Shown: positions 2,273 through 53,832 of the stretch, in pieces | Layout of the letters: the number at the start of each line of letters is the position of its first letter | Position numbering within the stretch: the first letter of the stretch is position 1 | Assembly: GCA_011109175.1 (NCBI GenBank) | Contig: RDEW01000044.1 | Span: 354,280-418,279 of the forward strand | Length of the DNA stretch: 64,000 nt | DNA from: Dicyema japonicum | Taxonomy: Eukaryota; Dicyemida; Rhombozoa; Dicyemidae | Reading direction: 5' to 3' | The notes under the pieces: model-generated | Seen by the model: only the letters and a program-made list of their open reading frames with translations | Told to the model about the DNA's origin: nothing | Databases searched by the model: none | Made by a program: the position numbers and the translations under genes

Positions 2273-2539
2273 TTCTTGACGATTTTTAAACCCGTAGTTC
2301 ATTCCTCATATACTCATCTTCATTTTCAACTACCCAGTATTTCTCATATTCTGGTCCATTGTATAATAGATACTGGGCGATATTCGAATCATTTTCTTGT
2401 TTAAAATCAATAATTTCTTTTCTATTTATTTATCTAAAAATTAGTTTAATTAAAAACTATTTAATTTTTAAATAATAAATTAAAATTTAAAATAAAACAA
2501 CACGATATTCAAATTGAAATAAATAATTATCATCACTTC

Positions 2540-3643
2540 ATGCTACAATTATTGTGTACGAAAAAGTAAATTTTATGTTGTTCACAAGATTTGTCAATAT
2601 TCTTGTATTATTAACACTTTTCGTCACTATAATATATTTGTCCAATAATATAGAACACTATCTAATAGAATTCAAATTTTTTTGTTATTCACAAGATTTG
2701 TCAATATTCTTGTATTATTAACACTTTTCGTCACTATAATATATTTGTCCAATAATATAGAACACTATCTAATAGAATTCAGAAACAGCCAAGTAGTTGC
2801 TTCGACTATCCTGTATAGTACAAGACATTCTCAAATCGAATTCAAAAGCAGTCAAATTGCTTCAAAGCAAACAATTTTTTGTATGGTTTTAACTAGCGTA
2901 ACCAATTATAAAACACGTGGAGTTTCTGTGTTAAACACGTGGGGGAAAAGATGTGACAAAGTTCTATTTTTTGTTGGAAAACCAGGCCTGAAGGAAAAAC
3001 ACGTGGTTTCATTAGACATTAATGACGACTATGAACATCTCCCATCCAAAACTTTTGGAGCGTTTGAATACATTGAGGATATCTTTTCTGGGCAGTTTGA
3101 CTGGGTTATCAAGGCTGATGATGACACTTACATTATTATGGAGAATCTGAGATATTTTCTGAAATTCTATGACCCAATTGATTTGAACAGTTTCGGTCTT
3201 AAGTTTTACAAGTATTTTCCGAACGGGTACTTCAGTGGAGGAGCATCTTACATTCTCAGCAAAACAGCGGTTAATAAAGTCGTTTCGGGCTTTAAATCTA
3301 AGGTACTTGATTTTGTCGATTTTAGAATCAACATTGTTATGCAGATACTGGAATGGAGGACCTCAAAATTGGGGAATGTCTCAACTTCCTTAATGTACCC
3401 ATTGTCACCGATGAATCCCGACCTTCAAAATTCTCCCCTTTTAATTTTTATGATACTATTTTAAAGAACTTCCCTAAATGGTACAAAAAATATAGAAAAA
3501 TTGATTCTTTTCCAGTTTGACCCAATTATGAAATTTAGGAACATTCCAATTTTCACAGAAATTTAATTTCTCTACATTATATGACTCCTAATGATATGAA
3601 AGTTGCTGATTACTTTATTTATAATATTTCGCTTATAAAATAA
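2540..3643 (+). CDS. Core-1 beta-1,3-galactosyltransferase-like protein, copy 1 (spliced)
   Basis: This is a Golgi type II glycosyltransferase of the C1GalT family (GT31), which adds galactose to O-linked GalNAc. Proposed exons are 2540-2565, 2696-3302, 3326-3514 and 3539-3643 (308 aa; human C1GALT1 is about 363). Introns are 130, 23 and 24 nt, all GT...AG. Residues 10-27 are a signal anchor (FVNILVLLTLFVTIIYL). IFCMVLTS and TWGKRCDKVLFF open the catalytic domain, the metal-binding DxD lies in KADDDTY (150-152), and SGGASYILSK is at 189-198. After the 23-nt intron come a Cys and EDLKIGECL (222-230). After the 24-nt intron comes LISLHYMTPNDM, matching the family's SFHY region. Without splicing the C-terminus is lost to frame change and stop. 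The first intron is 130 nt because a 107-bp duplication supplies a second acceptor; using the first acceptor (2588) gives a frameshift. Confidence 0.85.
2575..2788 (+). repeat. 107-bp direct duplication inside the first intron/second exon of C1GalT copy 1
   Basis: The segment containing ttcacaagatttgtcaatat starts at 2581 and again at 2688, about 107 bp apart. It includes the 3' end of intron 1, the acceptor and the codons for the membrane anchor. The two repeats are nearly identical, so the duplication is recent or an assembly artefact. 107 is not a multiple of three, so only one copy can be used in frame. Confidence 0.9.
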
Positions 3644-3728
3644 CACATTTTATTGACGTTTGTAATCTGTACTTAATATTATTATTACACAAAGCATATT
3701 CTAACTAACTAGCTTAAATTGGATCCCA

Positions 3729-4075
3729 ATACGAAGTGGTAGATTGGAGTTGGTTTCCAGACGGATGAGCCTGATATTGGGAGATGGGTCCAAATGCGTC
3801 AGGCGAGCATGGTTAGACCCACGTGCCTGGTATTAAGAGGTCGATCTGAATTTCTCAGGTGAGCATATGTAGACGGTGAGACTGGTGTTGGCAACCCGGC
3901 TTAAATGTCTCAGCTAAGTATAGGCAACAGTGAGTCTGATGTTGAGAGACCAGTCTGAATGTTTCAGCTGAGTATGGTTAGATCGATGATTATGGGTTGA
4001 CAAACCGGTCTAAATCTATCAGATGAGCGTGGTTGGACAAATGACAATTTGTCAGCCAAATTTGGCATCGAAACG
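3729..4075. repeat. 55-bp minisatellite downstream of C1GalT copy 1
   Basis: About six degenerate units of about 55 bp share the core ctcaggtgagcat followed by agac.gtgag.ctg.t.ttg. A related array lies at 50880-51345 after C1GalT copy 2, as part of the same duplicated block. No coding frame is supported. Confidence 0.8.
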
Positions 4076-5690
4076 TATGCGGAACGCAGACTTTTAATCC
4101 TAGTCGTATTGAGATCCCATACGGACGCATTCATCATCCATGAAGGTATCCAGAACTCCATTTGGAAATAACATAAATTACAAATGTCTTTATTCATGAC
4201 AAATGATTGATTGACAGCTGTCAATATCAATTTGGGCGCACACCACCAAGGCTCTAGGGATTGCGACACGTTTATTAATCAATGATTTCAATTAACGAAT
4301 TGTGAATAAAGTCCCTTTTTTAAATCTAAATTATTATTTGAAAGAAAGTCTTTTAGTTACTATGAAGAAAATAGCATCCAAATTTTGCCGCAAGGAAGTG
4401 ATCCACGTAGAAATTTAGCTCTGGGATGTGATGAATCAGAGTTTTGTCTCCTGACCTGACTAGATTGGTGATATTATCGATCAGTCTGTACCAGGACTAC
4501 CATGTGTTTTTCAAAATTATAACTCCAATACTTTAAATATGTTATCCCTCTAGTCATGTCGTTCATCATTTAAAATTTGAGACCGTGGAAAATGGTGTAA
4601 TATCATTTGATTCGAATAGGCCGACGACCGGCTATCCGCATTCACTCTCTATATCTGACTATCTAGAAAATGCGGAGAATCTATGGAGAACGAGACCGTT
4701 CCCGTTTCTACCAACTCTGTTGGATCTTCGAGGACCCCGAACGAGAGCCAGAACCCGGAAAACCAGGATCACTTGATTAGTAGTTAACTTTTAACTTTTT
4801 CTAACTCAGTGATCTTAGGGTAAAAAAATAGTGGAATATTGATGAAGCGAAAATAAAGGGGAACATGCAAATAATTTATTTGATGGGAAATATTGCCTTT
4901 TATACAAACTCAAGAGGATCCTTTCTAAGACTTCTAAATTTTTCAGTGGAGATAGTTATGCCGCCAGTAAATAAAATAATTACTGAGGTGAGTTGTTTGG
5001 TTTCGAGTAGGAAACGAATCCACCCCCAAATGGAAAAAGAGTCAAGGAATATTTAACAAGCACGCGATTATCAAAAGTGTTACTAAATCCATTAGGCTTC
5101 TTTCATTCTCTGAGCAATACATATAGAATTTATTAGAAACAAAAAACAACCCCCCTCAATTACGGCGGAAACCCAGTGATACTCCATAAAACTTTTCGTT
5201 TTCAATATAATTTGATAATCTGTCGAAATACCATCGCCCAGTAATTTTTCAGATTTAAACTAGAAATTCCTTTCTAGATCATGCGAACAATCGTCTTCGT
5301 TCATGTCGATGGAAGATGCCCAATGTTTTCACAATCGGCATGTCCTGTGTCTTTGAAGACATATGAGAGAAGAAATCTTATATTTTATCCAATATTAAAT
5401 TTAATGATTTATATCAGTAGAAATTTTCCCGCCTTGTGACGTCTAGCTCTGGAAAACAGGACAAACAAAGAGATCCCGAACCTCTTCACTAACTAGAGAG
5501 AGATAATGTCTACATCGTAAACGACAAAGTTCCACACTGACGGCCCTCAGAAGAAGCAGTTCTGAAGAGCCGATCTCAAGAGGTATGCGCTCCAGTGTCT
5601 TGGATATTTAAAATAATAATTAATTATTAAAAAAAATTATTTATTAAATAATTATTAATTTAAAAATTGACACGTCGACGTTTTATCGCA
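4075..5690. other. No supported gene
   Basis: The duplicated C1GalT block continues to about 4480. Beyond it are only short open frames (4585-4776, 4865-5056) with no recognisable motif, no plausible micro-intron partner and no homolog in the window. AT-rich palindromic stretches occur near 5610-5660. Confidence 0.6.
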
Positions 5691-13144: not shown

Positions 13145-13475
13145 ACCGCGTTGCCATAAGCAAGCAAGATGCCTAGGGATTCGCTTGTGCAGAACACACA
13201 CTTTATTTAAGTAAAGAACAGTTATTATAACATATCTTAGAGGGAAAACCAAGGAATGCTCTTCACTTCTTTGTTTATTCTTTTTCTTGTGTGTATGTCC
13301 TTTTGACTATCCAGTTCTGCAGTGAATCTCTACTGATGACGGCGTCACTTGCTCTTCACTTCTTTGTTTATTCTTTTTCTTGTGTGTATGTCCTTTTGAC
13401 TATCCAGTTCTGCAGTGAATCTCTACTGATGACGGCGTCACTCTTCAAACCCTTTCCGCATCGTAGATGCGTAAA
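13145..13475 (-). repeat. SINE F copy with internal 93-bp tandem duplication
   Basis: Homologous to 49229-49528 (gcactaccg.gttgc.ataag, tttattta.g.aaagaacagt, gcagtgaatctc.actgatga). The segment cttcacttctttgtttattc to ggcgtcact occurs twice, at 13261 and 13354, virtually identical. The short Cys-containing plus-strand frame here is a product of the duplication, not a gene. Confidence 0.8.
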
Positions 13476-14029: not shown

Positions 14030-14345
14030 CTTATCTCCTTAAACCTAGATGATTAATCACCCCAACATTGTCCGAAAGTGGCTTAAAGCGTTTTCAGGTA
14101 ATTTTGATCGGCTCATCCTTTTGCATAACAGTTGTTCTAATTTACAGAATTACGGGTGACACTAATCTATACCACGATGGCTTATCTCCTTACTCCTAGA
14201 TGATTAATCACCCCAATATTGTCCGGAAGTGGTTTAAAGCGTTTTCAGGTAATTTTGATCGGCTCATCCTTTTGCATAACAGTTGTTCTAATTTACAGAA
14301 TTACGGGTGAGACTAATCTATCCCACAATGGACTACACTAAGGAA
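14030..14345 (+). repeat. 151-bp tandem duplication with exon-intron-exon appearance
   Basis: Two units begin at 14030 and 14181. In each, ATG ATT AAT CAC encodes MINHPNIVRKW(L/F)KAFS and then meets a strong donor (tcag/gtaattttgatc). After exactly 34 nt ending ttgcataacag the frame continues VVLIYRITG(D/E)TNL to a stop. Several differences between units are synonymous. Either a duplicated small spliced gene or a repeat that mimics one. Confidence 0.5.
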
Positions 14346-28298: not shown

Positions 28299-29866
28299 AA
28301 GGCATCTGAATGGCCATGCTATTTCCCCTAACAATAGCCAACGAGATACGTTCTCGGAACCAACCAGTCTCTCGCGGATCCTTGGTCACAGCTTGAATCA
28401 TGGAGCCGATCTTACGAACCAACTCATCTGCTTGGGGCCAAGGATTCCTGACGTTTCCACCGCAAATGGAACAAAAAGATACTCCTCCGAAATTCTCTGG
28501 TACTTCCTCCTTTTTCGTTCCTCGGCCAGCTTTGAAGCATGTCCTGGGTCTGAAGCAGAAGCAACCAAATTAGACGGGGAATAAGTATCAACACACGTCG
28601 CGTCCCAGATCAGGTTTCGTCCGTTGGCGAATGGAAAAGTCGTCATCCCATCAGGGCGTTTTCCATCGTTTCGGAAAAGACCAGCAGGTTCTAACAGGCA
28701 ACGGTGTTCAGCAGAGGCAAGGGAATTCTTTAATGTCATGTTAAGACAGGAGTGCATGGGGAAACGACCCGCACTCATCTTGCATGACAAGGGATGGTAA
28801 CCAAAAGGATCGATCCAACGTCCAAAGCGGCATTTTCTTTCGGCACACAATTTAATTCCAAGACGAAGCGAGGTAGCTATTCTCACAGCCTCATCATCCA
28901 ACAGGTTTCCAATTTCGGCAGATGGATAAGCGTTCATCCAGGCCCCTGTCGAGTGACAACTGGCTGTTTTGAGGCAGGTAAGCCTTCTTACATCTTCTGT
29001 CTTTTCAAGGGACTCTTTCTTCTTTTCGAAGACACAAAACAAATAGGACTTTTCCTTATCACAATTGACCGGAGCATTCAGGTACAAATTCATCTATTAA
29101 TCCCAGGCTCCCGACGGCGTCAGCGGTATGTTTAGTCCGGAAGTAGAGTGAAGGACCGTATCCACTAAACGCCTTGACGAACCGAACGAAGATAAATAGG
29201 CGCCCAAAGCAACGTCCGAAGGAAGAGAAAGACCCAAACCACCGCAGGCTACAGGGAGTGAGGCCTGTAACCATCCGAAATCATCAAAACAAACATTAAG
29301 AATGGACCCCATCGTCGACCGGATATCCATATCAATTAACGATAGAAGGTCATTTTCGGCGTAGCATGGGGATCCCCGTAGAATAAAAAGGAGTTTTGGG
29401 AGAAAAAGACAATTCTTAAGCATAAAAAAGGCGACATGACGGTCCAAAAAAGTCATCCTGTCGGCATACTGACGTAAATTTGTCCTCTTGCCTTTCAATA
29501 ACTCCCTCACCCGGTTTACCAAAATCCCACACCCAAGGAAGTCGAGAGAATCAAAATGAGTCTCCCTAACCTCTGGGATGATTTCGCAGAGTTTTCTATG
29601 AAAAAGGTAGAATGAATCAGAACTCAAATTCAGATTAATTGCTTCGCACTTTTCATTGTTAAATTCCAGACCGATTTTTTCACACAAACTTCTGATCGAC
29701 GCAACTTTGGAGAGAATATTATCGAGACTTCCACCGAGAATACAATCGTCCAGATACCAGACGTTCAGTGGAGTGCAACGGTCCTGGGCAATATGGTCGA
29801 TAGACAAGGAAAATAGAAGAGGACCGAGTGGGTCCCCCTGTTGAACTCCGGATCCAGACTCGTTGG
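28299..29866 (-). pseudogene. LINE A reverse transcriptase and C-terminal domain (5'-truncated)
   Basis: The minus-strand reading has RT motif B GVQQGDPLGPLLFSL, motif C WYLDD (about 29755), a thumb region (FLPKLLFILRG), then GAWMNAYPSAEIGNLLDDEA. A Cys/His cluster (CAERKC ... HPLSC ... RFPMH) follows, and a block with KRPDGMTTFPF and LIWDATCVDTYS. The CCHC-then-RPD...D arrangement resembles the zinc knuckle plus PD-(D/E)xK nuclease of R2-like LINEs; this is my inference. The frame is broken by tandem TAA-TAG stops (29094-29099) and by loss of one C in the run at 28434-28437, relative to the copy at 10781. The C-terminus RERISLAIVRGNSMAIQMP is in another frame after that. Confidence 0.85.
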
Positions 29867-29950
29867 CTATTGTTAGGGGAAATAGCATGGCCATTCAGAT
29901 ACCTTAATTTAATTTTTAATCATTTTATAATAAAATCTATATGTTAAAAA
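29867..29950 (+). mobile_element. Inverted 3'-end fragment of LINE A, head-to-head with the main copy
   Basis: Bases 29867-29921 are the reverse complement of 28299-28353 with about one difference, ending in the element's 3' UTR and an A-rich tail (gttaaaaaaaa). The RT reading frame therefore appears to start with codons that are really antisense of the element's own C-terminus (MAMLFPLTIANE). Confidence 0.85.
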
Positions 29951-49729: not shown

Positions 49730-49838
49730 TTAGTTTAATTAAAAACTTTATTTAATTTTTTTAATTAAATATTATAAAATAAAATTTAAAATAAAACAAC
49801 TCAATATTCAAATTGGAATAAATAATTATCATCACTTG

Positions 49839-50770
49839 ATGCTACAATTGATGCTTACGAAAAAGTAAAATTTTGTTGTTTACAAGATTTTTCAATATTC
49901 TTGTATTTTTAACACTTTTCTTCTCTATAATATATTTTTTGTCCAATAATATAGAACAATCTCAAATCGAATTCAAAAGCAGCCAAATTGCTCAAAGCAA
50001 ACAATTTTTTGTATGGTTTTAACTAGTGTGACCAATTATAAAACACGTGGAGTTTCTGTTTTAAACACGTGGGGGAAAAGATGTGACAAAGTTCTAATTT
50101 TTGTTGGAAGACCAGGCCTGAAGGAAAAACACGTGGTTTCATTAGACATTAATGACGACTATGAACATCTCCCATCCAAAACTTTTGGAGCGTTTGAATA
50201 CATTGAGGATAACTTTTCTGGGCAGTTTGACTGGGTTATCAAGGCTGATGATGACACTTACATTATTATGGAGAATCTGAGATATTTTCTGAAATTCTAT
50301 GACCCAATTGATTTGAACAGCTTCGGTCTTAAGTTTTACAAGTATTTTCCGAACGGGTACTTCAGTGGAGGAGCATCTTACATTCTCAGCAAAACAGCTG
50401 TTAATAAAGTCGTTTCGGGCTTTAAATCTAAGGTACTTGATTTTGTCGATTTTAGAATCAACATTGTTATGCAGATACTGGAATGGAGGACCTCAAAATT
50501 GGGGAATGTCTCAACTTCCTTAATGTACCCATTGTCACCGATGAATCCCGACCTACAAAATTCTCCCCTTTTAATTTTTATGATACTATTTTAAAGAACT
50601 TCCCTAAATGGTACAAAAAATATAGAAAAATTGATTCTTTTCCAGTTTGACCCAATTATGAAATTTAGGAGCATTCCAATTTTCACAGAAATTTAATTTC
50701 TCTACATTATATGACTCCTAATGATATGAAAGTTGCTGACTACTTTGTTTATAATATTCTTATAAGATAA
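49839..50770 (+). CDS. Core-1 beta-1,3-galactosyltransferase-like protein, copy 2 (spliced, frameshifted)
   Basis: The gene structure equals copy 1. ATG 49839 (MLQLMLTKK), a 22-nt intron (49865-49886), an anchor segment (FFNILVFLTLFFSIIYF), the catalytic exon with KADDDTY and SGGASYILSK, a 23-nt intron (50433-50455), EDLKIGECL, a 24-nt intron (50645-50668), and LISLHYMTPNDM to a stop at 50768-50770. No 107-bp duplication is present, and about 65 bp of copy 1's stem region is absent. One base is missing near 49991 (attgctcaaag versus attgcttcaaag in copy 1), which shifts the frame before IFCMV. From ATG 50013 onward the reading is intact. It is therefore a pseudogene unless the base loss is a sequencing error. 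Confidence 0.75.
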
Positions 50771-50879
50771 CACATTTTATTGATTTTTTATTCTGTACTT
50801 TACATTATTTATTTCGATATTATGTGTTCATAAAGACTATTCAGGACTCCCTAGCTTGAATAGGATACCAATGCGAAAT

Positions 50880-51345
50880 GGCAGAGTTGGAATTTGTTTC
50901 CAGACGGACGAGCCTGCTATTGATAAACCGATCTAAATGTCTCAGGTGAGCATAGGCAGACTGTGAACCTGGTTTAAGAGACTGACCTTATCTATCAGGC
51001 GGTATGGTCAGACAGATGAGTTTGGAATTAAAAGACTGGTCTGAATGCGTAGATCGTCTAGTCTAGTATTGAGAGAGCGATCTAAATGTCTCAGGTGAGA
51101 ATATGCAGACGGTGAGTCTGGTTTGAGAGACCACTATAAATATCTCAGTTGAGCATAGGCAGACGGTAAGACTTGTGCTGACAAACCGACCTAAATGTCT
51201 CAACAGATGATAAGCAGACGGTGAGTCTGATGTTGAAAGACCAGTCTGATTGTCTCTGCTGAGTATGGTTAGATCGATGACCATGGGTTAACAAACCGGT
51301 CTAAGTCTATCAGATGAGCGTGGTTAGACAGACAACCATTTGTCA
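50880..51345. repeat. 55-bp minisatellite downstream of C1GalT copy 2
   Basis: About eight degenerate units with the core gtctcaggtgagcataggc; the counterpart of 3729-4075 but longer. Short minus-strand frames across it are not genes. Confidence 0.8.
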
Positions 51346-52890
51346 ACCAAGTCGGCATCGAAACGGATGCAGAACACAGACTTTTAATCCCAGTCGTATT
51401 GAGATCCCATATGGACGCATTCATCATCCATGAAGGTACCCAGAACTCCATTTGGAAATCACATAAGTTACAAATGTCTTTAGTCATGACAAATGATTGA
51501 TTGACAGCTGTCAATATGGGCGCAGCACCACCTACGCTCTAGGGATTGCGACACATCGTATTAATCAATGATTTCTCATTAACGAATTGTGAATAATGTC
51601 TCTTTTTATGTAAATTTATTATTCAAGAAAGTCTTTTAAGTTCCTATGAAGAAAATAGCATCCGAATTTTGCACGAGAAGGTGATCTACTAAAAATTTAG
51701 CTCTGGGATAGGACGAATCAGAGTTTTGGCTCCCCTGACCTGACCAGATTGGTGATATTATCGATCAAATCATTTCCGTGCTAGGACCACCACAACAATA
51801 AGGAACTTGTGGGGACGCCATCACTTTCAGCTAGACGCTTTATAGCAGTCGGCCTCGTGCATGTTAGAAAGCTCTGGGTAACTAACTAACAATTAAGTAA
51901 AAGCAATAATACATTTTTTTCCTGGCACGTGTTCATTAATCTTGATCAGAGTATCTTCGGAGTCGAGGTGTATATTAATAGTATATGTTTAATGGAATCG
52001 CGTTGGTTTAGGATAAATCTATCAGAGACTTGATATTGCATGGGATTCATGGGGGTGACTTAAATAATGAGCAAGGGACACTAAAAGTAAAATGTGCTGA
52101 AGAAAATATAATGAATAGCTCTCTCTTCATAGGGGAATGTCCACGAACCTATCCTTCCCTTTTCTCCATACTGAGTGTGTACGAGACCGATACATAGTCA
52201 GAAGCATTGATTCGAAGTTGACCGAGATTTCTGTATAAAAATATTGACTCGATATCAACCTAGATTACTGTATGGTTTTTTGATTACGATCTTTCTTCAC
52301 AGAATTATCGTATCTATTAAAACTCTAGTAAATAGAATGGCCCTGTTAGTCTTACTGTCTTATCTCTTCAATGTTAGTGTAATCTCGGATTCAATGGACG
52401 TCAGATACGCTAAGATTTTGATAACCAATATCACAATTCGATTCAGATAAACTTAAATAAGATTGCGGTGAAACTGCAAGTAATTATTACTTGCTAATGG
52501 CCATTAGAGTGGTATATGTATTTCTAAGTAAAGACGCATTCTATCTTATTAAAAAATAAGTTTGAGATTTTTTGCCTACCCAGGACCACCTGGACTCGAC
52601 GTGAATTTTGGGGATCTATGTAAGAGACATGTTTAGAGACTGCGTCTCCAAATAGTTTTAAGATTCCTACATGCAGAAATAACAATTTATTTTAACTTCT
52701 ACAAGAAGAGAAAATTTTCGAAGATCAGTTGCAAGTATTTAGCAGAAGAGATGTAATTATCATTTCTCGAAAATTTTCAATTTTAATTATTAACATTTTA
52801 AAATAAATTTATTTGAAAAAAATAATATTTAAAATGTAAAATAAAATAAATAATTAATTCAAATTATATTCATATTCACTTTGTCTAATC
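51346..52890. other. No well-supported gene
   Basis: The duplicated block ends at about 51755. A 68-codon frame at 52244-52450 contains a signal-like MALLVLLSYLFNVSVISDS but is otherwise unrecognised. The rest is AT-rich. Confidence 0.4.
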
Positions 52891-53832
52891 ATGTTCCGAT
52901 TAGTGATTCCAAGAAAGTAATTTTTTTATTGATCCTAAGATTTGTTAATATTCTAGTGATACTAACAATTTTCTTCTCTATTACATTATCTTTTGGTTAA
53001 TACTGGACAGTATATAGTCAAATTCAAAAAAAGTAGGAAAGATGTCTTTTTTAATCAAACTATTTTTTGCATGGTTTTGACTTCTGTGGGCAAATATAAA
53101 ACACGTGGAATTACTATTAAAAAAACGTGGGGAAAAGATGCGACAAAATTCTATTTTTTGTTGTAAAACCTGGCCTGAATATAATGAACGTTGTTTCGTT
53201 GGACATTAAAGACGACTATGAGCATCTCCCAACGAAAACTTTTAAAGCGCTAAAATACATAGAGGACAAATTTTCAGGCCAGTTTGACTGGGTTATCAAG
53301 GCCGATGATGACACATACATTATTATGGAGAATCTGAGATATTTTCTGAAATTCTACGACTCATTTAGTTTGATCAGTTTAGGACATAAGTTTTACAAGT
53401 ATTACTCTAATGGGTACCTCAGTGGAGGGGCTTCCTACATTCTCAGCAAAACAGCTGTTAGTAAAGTCGTTTCGGCTTTTAAACATAAAGTATTTTCATT
53501 CTGGCGATTTCAGATTCCTGGGTGTTCTGAAGATGATGCGACTGAGGATGTAAAAATGGGTGAATGTCTAAACCACCTCAATGTACAAATCGTCTCTGAA
53601 GAATCCAAGCCTTCAAAATTTTCAGCTTTAAATTTGTATGATACCGTTTTGAAGAAATTTCCCAAATGGTTCGTAGATTACAGGAAATTTGATACTTTTC
53701 CGGTTTGACCTAATTAGTGAAATTTAGGAGCATTCTAATGTTCATAGAAATCTAATTTCTCTGCATTACATGACTCATGTTGATATGAAAGTTTTAGATT
53801 TCTTAATTTATGATGTTGAGGTTGTGAGGTAA
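52891..53832 (+). CDS. Core-1 beta-1,3-galactosyltransferase-like protein, copy 3 (spliced, diverged)
   Basis: Proposed exons are 52891-52916, 52940-52995, 53018-53489, 53514-53702 and 53728-53832. Introns are 23, 22, 24 and 25 nt. It starts MFRLVIPRK, then the anchor FVNILVILTIFFSITLSF. The 22-nt second intron (52996-53017) has no counterpart in copies 1 and 2 and is needed to reach VFFNQTIFCMVLTSV in frame. Catalytic motifs are KADDDTY and SGGASYILSK. The 24-nt third intron has no stop and is in frame, so it also reads through as coding. It is followed by GCSEDDATEDVKMGECL, and the 25-nt intron leads to LISLHYMTHVDM and a stop at 53830-53832. A G run has four Gs at 53129-53132 where the other copies have five, shifting the frame inside TWGKRC; this is decay or a homopolymer error. 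Confidence 0.75.

Follow-up and report, generated by a model that had tools for sequence, protein, structure and literature searches.

The question raised by this locus is whether segments as short as 22–25 nt can be spliceosomal introns. Three genes that resemble core-1 β-1,3-galactosyltransferase (C1GalT) are each interrupted by such segments in the window, the stretch of 64,000 nucleotides of Dicyema japonicum DNA that was analysed here. We conclude, with a probability of roughly 0.96, that the segments are real introns of the U2 type, 21–25 nt long, in a dicyemid gene family of seven copies, and that a normal major spliceosome would remove them from the mRNA.

The three genes lie on the forward strand, copy A at 2540..3643, copy B at 49839..50770 and copy C at 52891..53832. 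The spliced product of copy A, which comprises 308 residues when the long form of intron 1 described below is used, matches PF01762 and PF02434 above their Pfam cut-offs; this is the outcome of the profile search of joined exons that the earlier note had proposed. Animal C1GalT1-like proteins are among its top matches (46 at E ≤ 1e-3 from 462 candidates), and its best solved relative is Drosophila C1GalT1 (7q4i; E 9.4e-42, residues 62–304). The alignment with the Drosophila enzyme spans the junctions of introns 2 and 3, and the C...EDLKIGECL and LISLHYM blocks that follow these introns align to it, in agreement with the earlier claim that family motifs lie beyond the segments. Regarding C1GALT1 (T-synthase, GT31), the dicyemid copies share with animal relatives the KADDDTY stretch; however, they have a short divergent stem and are present as seven gene copies. 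Judged by its sequence, the family is C1GalT-like (GT31), with a putative galactosyltransferase activity on the Tn antigen. The count comes from a PF02434 profile search of the genome (64.7 Mb in 191 contigs), which gave seven matches, all above the cut-off; these were taken as seven gene copies (A, B, C and L001–L004), a number that is a lower bound. Copies A and B lie inside a duplicated block (window positions 2441–4483 and 49730–51767) with 93% identity over the main part of the gene and 86–87% on either side. The window also holds two neighbouring open reading frames of 265 and 231 residues on the minus strand at 28398–29894. The 265-residue frame matches the reverse transcriptase family PF00078, and the pair is therefore called LINE-like; no Pfam family matched the 231-residue frame. 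As for the host, an aldolase taken from the genome has its top match in Dicyema acuticephalum, with 75% identity over the whole length, while the others among the best 120 of 7984 matches do not exceed 62%. On the sequence of this one protein, the host is a dicyemid.

Each gene carries three segments at corresponding sites. Intron 1 is found at 49865..49886 in copy B (22 nt) and at 52917..52939 in copy C (23 nt), both in phase 2; in copy A it starts at 2566 and has a short form ending at 2588 (23 nt) and a long form ending at 2695 (130 nt). Intron 2 occupies 3303..3325 in copy A (23 nt), 50433..50455 in copy B (23 nt) and 53490..53513 in copy C (24 nt). Intron 3 occupies 3515..3538 (24 nt), 50645..50668 (24 nt) and 53703..53727 (25 nt), respectively. 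Introns 2 and 3 are in phase 0 throughout. All nine sites, at 22–25 nt, start with GT and end with AG. The four segments listed in the earlier note (intron 2 of copies A and B, and intron 3 of copies A and C) were located exactly as given, with these termini and with lengths of 23, 24, 23 and 25 nt in order of position, and the five further sites that it implied also exist. Its statement that removal brings back motifs holds as well, in that all three copies show the C...ED-K-GECL block and the LISLHYM block once introns 2 and 3 are taken out.

The homology of the positions, which had been proposed for three copies, extends to the whole family. Using a protein-to-genome aligner of our own, we found introns 2 and 3 at residues 211 and 274, both in phase 0, in all seven copies. 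GT...AG termini occur at all 14 of these sites, in an alignment that permitted GT–AG only. The length of intron 2 is 22 nt in three copies, 23 nt in two and 24 nt in two, and that of intron 3 is 24 nt in two copies and 25 nt in five. Intron 1 (phase 2, 21–23 nt) sits at the same protein position in 7/7 copies, six of which were identified by motif and one, L003 (22 nt), on inspection. The interiors of introns 2 and 3 differ among the seven copies, whereas the ends and the protein position are kept. Intron 3 opens with GTTTGAC in every copy, and the remainder of this intron varies. Mytilus C1GalT1, taken as an outside reference, placed introns 2 and 3 identically in four copies (A, B, C and L003). 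The alignments of L001 and L002 ended before intron 3 and so recovered intron 2 alone; in L004 another segment, of 28 nt, was picked for intron 2, and the alignment again ended before intron 3. Several further proposals were not accepted: a 22-nt segment of copy C proposed by the aligner (52996–53017), a second 25-nt candidate in the same copy that lacks an upstream Met, and longer aligner segments (50–1051 nt) in L001–L004, where the N-terminal part is weakly conserved.

These positions bear on the simplest alternative, namely that diverging copies have gathered random indels and stops, and that GT...AG ends were then chosen by eye. AT-rich sequence does offer many possible segments, and a control restricted to C1GalT is not decisive. 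When any of the 256 dinucleotide pairs was allowed as intron ends, with the distant Mytilus protein as reference, GT–AG ranked 4, 5, 13, 22, 38, 77 and 85 on the seven copies, and in the total over all copies it was outscored by AT-rich pairs, TA–TT among them. Chance would nevertheless have to place GT and AG at the same codon positions in 7/7 copies despite changed interiors and lengths, and the same class accounts for 95 of the 97 introns in the conserved loci examined. We consider this explanation highly improbable. A second alternative accepts the segments as features of the mRNA that are translated or bypassed, as a retained insert, a programmed frameshift or a ribosome hop. Here the reading frame has to be treated with care. 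The earlier note stated that removal is needed to keep the frame; however, three of the nine introns are 24 nt long and thus frame-neutral, so frame alone cannot demonstrate them. Intron 3 of copies A and B carries an in-frame stop if retained. Intron 2 of copy C has none, so the unspliced frame runs through it and the 24 nt could stay as eight additional residues, which is the observation that favours translation. The other eight sites in the window shift the frame or hold a stop, and segments of the same class interrupt actin and Prp8 at well-conserved boundaries, which leaves translation or bypass with very little probability.

The comparison with conserved genes places the C1GalT introns, which we read as spliceosomal, in a genome-wide class. 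We examined 17 conserved loci (L069–L079, L081, L084, L085, L089, L103 and L104), comprising Prp8, ten actins and one more actin, three of nine CCT/Hsp60 loci and two aldolase genes. The 97 introns of this set are not independent, since paralogous actins are included. Ninety-five of them are 20–29 nt long (mean 23.9, s.d. 1.6), the remaining two measure 43 and 78 nt, and none longer than 78 nt was reported in the 17 loci. In Prp8, all 35 introns are 20–26 nt long. The ten actin loci have introns at the shared codon positions 41, 113, 191, 246 and 308, all but one of 78 nt measuring 22–29 nt. The control over 256 dinucleotide pairs was also applied to the 5′ third of Prp8, with a Lingula protein of about 80% identity as reference, and there GT–AG ranks first (3137, versus 2989 for the next pair and 2424 without introns).

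The signals in these 97 introns are sparse. Beyond AG|GT the donor is weak, with less than 0.5 bit at each of the positions +3 to +6 and a G at +5 in 13%. The acceptor is T-rich and ends in TAG in 71%. No clear branch-point motif was found in the set: CTRAY occurs in 5/97 introns versus 3.5 expected, and the largest excess among branch motifs, that of TAAY (43/97 versus 36.6 expected), was equalled in 37 of 500 shuffles. The genome encodes Prp8 and has 25 matches to U2 RNA (22 above the cut-off) and ten to U6 RNA (nine above). All 11 matches to U1 RNA fall below the Rfam gathering score, the best at 69.0 versus 69.5 bits; the U1 RNA has ACTTACCTG near its 5′ end, despite the weak donor signal. 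At least 25 U2-like and at least 11 U1-like matches are spread over several contigs, which are many snRNA copies for a small genome. Position, termini, phase and membership of a genome-wide class, together with the spliceosomal RNAs and Prp8, are direct observations for the C1GalT introns. Removal from the mRNA by the normal major spliceosome would follow a scheme in which the intron is recognized mostly through the AG|GT donor and the T-rich acceptor ending in TAG, the AT-rich stretch between them being tiny and devoid of a clear branch-point motif; recognition would probably take place across the intron. The original interpretation as spliceosomal introns is supported by the positions conserved in 7/7 copies, the genome-wide 20–29-nt class, the spliceosome parts and the dN/dS values of exon 4. 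This exon lies past intron 3; of the 21 copy pairs compared over it in the spliced frame, 20 have a dN/dS below 0.6 and one, C and L001, has 1.58.

That the introns are real does not settle whether all copies encode a working protein. According to the earlier note, splicing restores three genes, and in this respect its claim has to be narrowed. One-nucleotide frameshifts in copy B (approximately 49990–49991) and copy C (approximately 53134–53135) survive the removal of all introns. In copy A, the frame closes after 52 codons with the 23-nt form of intron 1, and 308 codons are open only with the acceptor at 2695, which gives the only open-frame reading that we found for this copy. The second acceptor and the 130-nt intron exist because of a tandem duplication at 2571..2781 on the forward strand (107 bp, 2.0 copies, 98%), which covers intron 1 and exon 2, so that the acceptor at 2695 lies in the second unit. 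Because several two-copy tandem repeats occur in the window, this duplication could be an artefact of the assembly. The repeats lie at 2571–2781, 2077–2274, 13257–13442, 14030–14331 and 1085–1481, with units of 93–199 bp and 89–100% matches, and may reflect local duplication or assembly artefacts.

It is therefore conceivable that copies B and C, possibly along with further copies, are pseudogenes in decay, with introns that are real but irrelevant to a working protein. The aligner introduced frameshifts in L003 and L004 in addition to B and C, so some copies may be pseudogenes, and the N-terminal stem region of copy C is disrupted. On the other hand, at least one frameshift was introduced in 11 of the 17 housekeeping loci of the same assembly, some of them within weakly conserved stretches; single-base errors of sequencing or assembly may therefore account for those of B and C as well. 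The pattern of substitution does not resemble decay in the pair A and B, which differ by five non-synonymous and seven synonymous changes over 239 codons (dN/dS 0.19). Among all copies, dN/dS over codons 66–308 ranges from 0.18 to 0.50. In the weakly conserved exon 3, the pair L002 and L004 gives 1.67. Weighing both sides, we consider decay of copies B and C, possibly with others, to be a serious prospect, with a chance slightly short of even.

The content of the short introns can be compared with the consequences of retaining them. Among the 97 introns, an in-frame stop would be met upon retention in 23 of the 26 whose length is divisible by three, versus 28 of the 71 others (Fisher P 2e-5). 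Shuffled interiors predict 17.6 of 26 and 36.9 of 71, respectively. The contrast between the two classes is clear, but paralogues contribute many of the introns, and taken alone the divisible class shows a modest excess. The 24-nt intron 2 of C1GalT copy C, which lacks a stop, is an exception to the rule. A similar in-frame-stop rule has reportedly been seen in Paramecium. In the accessible sections of a paper on Paramecium bursaria (PMC12862383), we found nothing on such a frame rule.

The same genome also keeps minor introns, a second and rarer class. U12-type introns follow a consensus of an RTATCCTTT donor and a TTCCTTRAY branch motif, with AC or AG at the end. A U12 RNA is present (one match, 85 bits versus a cut-off of 53) and contains GAGTAAGGAAAA, which we take to be the canonical box; there is also one U6atac candidate (37 bits versus a cut-off of 33). 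A strict pattern, TATCCTTTN{0,30}TTCCTTRAY, gave nine matches in the genome versus two in a reversed control, and of the eight examined four were accepted. All four are AT–AC introns with the donor ATATCCTTT and the branch motif TTCCTTAAC/T, situated between coding stretches of conserved genes: a PLC-like gene (L093, contig C126, 58 nt), a SMAP-like gene (SMAP1; L094, contig C137, 48 nt), a GGPP-synthase-like gene (L095, contig C148, 52 nt) and a gene resembling an N-type Ca channel (L098, contig C83, 53 nt). In L094, L095 and L098, the alignment of the joined peptide to a solved relative shows no gap where the exons meet; the Pfam matches of these three short peptides are below the cut-off. 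For the PLC-like gene the PDB alignment starts at the junction codon, and a Pfam PI-PLC-Y match (88 bits) spans the junction. Use of the nearest AC acceptor would shorten this intron to 50 nt and breaks the frame, and 58 nt was therefore chosen. Two of the matches, L092 and L107, were rejected since a T precedes TATCC, and L096 and L097 were rejected for want of clear coding on the two flanks together; a second match on contig C62 is letter-identical to L097.

When the gap was widened to 31–60 nt, the pattern gave nine matches versus none in the reversed control, so some of these may be genuine longer minor introns. Six loci were examined (L099–L102, L105 and L106), and clear conserved coding on both flanks was found in none of the six, L106 being judged by eye. 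In L100 a T precedes TATCC. Of the other three matches, two are letter-identical to L105 and one nearly so to L106. No Pfam family matched the joined sequences of L099, L101, L105 and L107. L102 (contig C34, about 91 nt) has a weak match to HEAT_PSME4 (E 0.036, below the cut-off) and may hold a longer minor intron. The four confirmed minor introns, at 48–58 nt, are about twice as long as those of the U2 type, and U12-dependent splicing is predicted for them. In the available portion of a pan-eukaryotic survey, which excluded introns shorter than 30 nt, the shortest species mean for U12-type introns is that of Blastocystis, at just under 42 bp (PMC10639083), compared with 48–58 nt in the dicyemid. 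A search of open-licence full texts returned no description of U12-type introns or of a minor spliceosome in dicyemids. The one paper found there that mentions both dicyemids and U12 is PMC2483917, and its accessible dicyemid content deals with the shortness of introns, with branch points and with 5′ boundaries rather than with the U12 type.

Ultra-short introns are not new for dicyemids, which are minute octopus parasites, and those of C1GalT are ordinary there. In the parts of the earlier literature available to us, the mean length of dicyemid introns is given as 26.2 ± 1.9 nt for n = 16 (PMC2222250), and the median in Dicyema sp. as 27 nt (PMC6543705). A table row for D. acuticephalum reads 41, 25, 24.93 and 2.51, which we take as number, median, mean and s.d. 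on assumed column heads, and the same source describes Dicyema as having a 5′ boundary weaker than any other known and as lacking a branch-point signature (PMC2483917). For D. japonicum, excerpts of the genome description give 67.5 Mb with 4.1% gaps and an intron mean of 38.2 (PMC6736024). Our set fits the published dicyemid introns in its mean of 23.9 nt, its weak positions +3 to +6 and its lack of a clear branch motif; it differs in that the mean is slightly shorter and was measured in 17 conserved loci, to which the C1GalT family is added. Introns of 20–35 nt in Paramecium tetraurelia and of 18–21 nt in the Bigelowiella natans nucleomorph are cited in the accessible text of PMC2222250. These resemble the dicyemid introns in their weak signals, as far as the available part of PMC2483917 goes, although the lineages are unrelated to dicyemids.

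The C1GalT introns are thus added members of an already published class, and they suggest a reason for the failure of automatic gene models in this group. The C1GalT product has its best match in P0001, a protein of 172 residues on a contig of 49 kb that is listed as Octopus sinensis, with 64% identity over 47% of the query. Its alignment to the family stops exactly at residue 211, the position of intron 2, and the model ends three residues further. P0001 is possibly a dicyemid contaminant in the octopus assembly, in which the gene predictor would have run into intron 2. At the level of the spliceosome, it is an even bet, in our judgement, that one animal has distinct length floors, about 20–29 nt for U2-type introns and at least about 48–58 nt for confirmed U12-type AT–AC introns, which are perhaps the shortest minor introns of any animal, and that the stop rule of the U2-type introns reflects mRNA surveillance, which would safeguard the accuracy of a spliceosome working with very weak signals. 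Such an animal would serve as a natural test of how small a substrate can be for each spliceosome, approximately 23 nt for the major and 50 nt for the minor, in which the short major introns bear a possible signature of surveillance.
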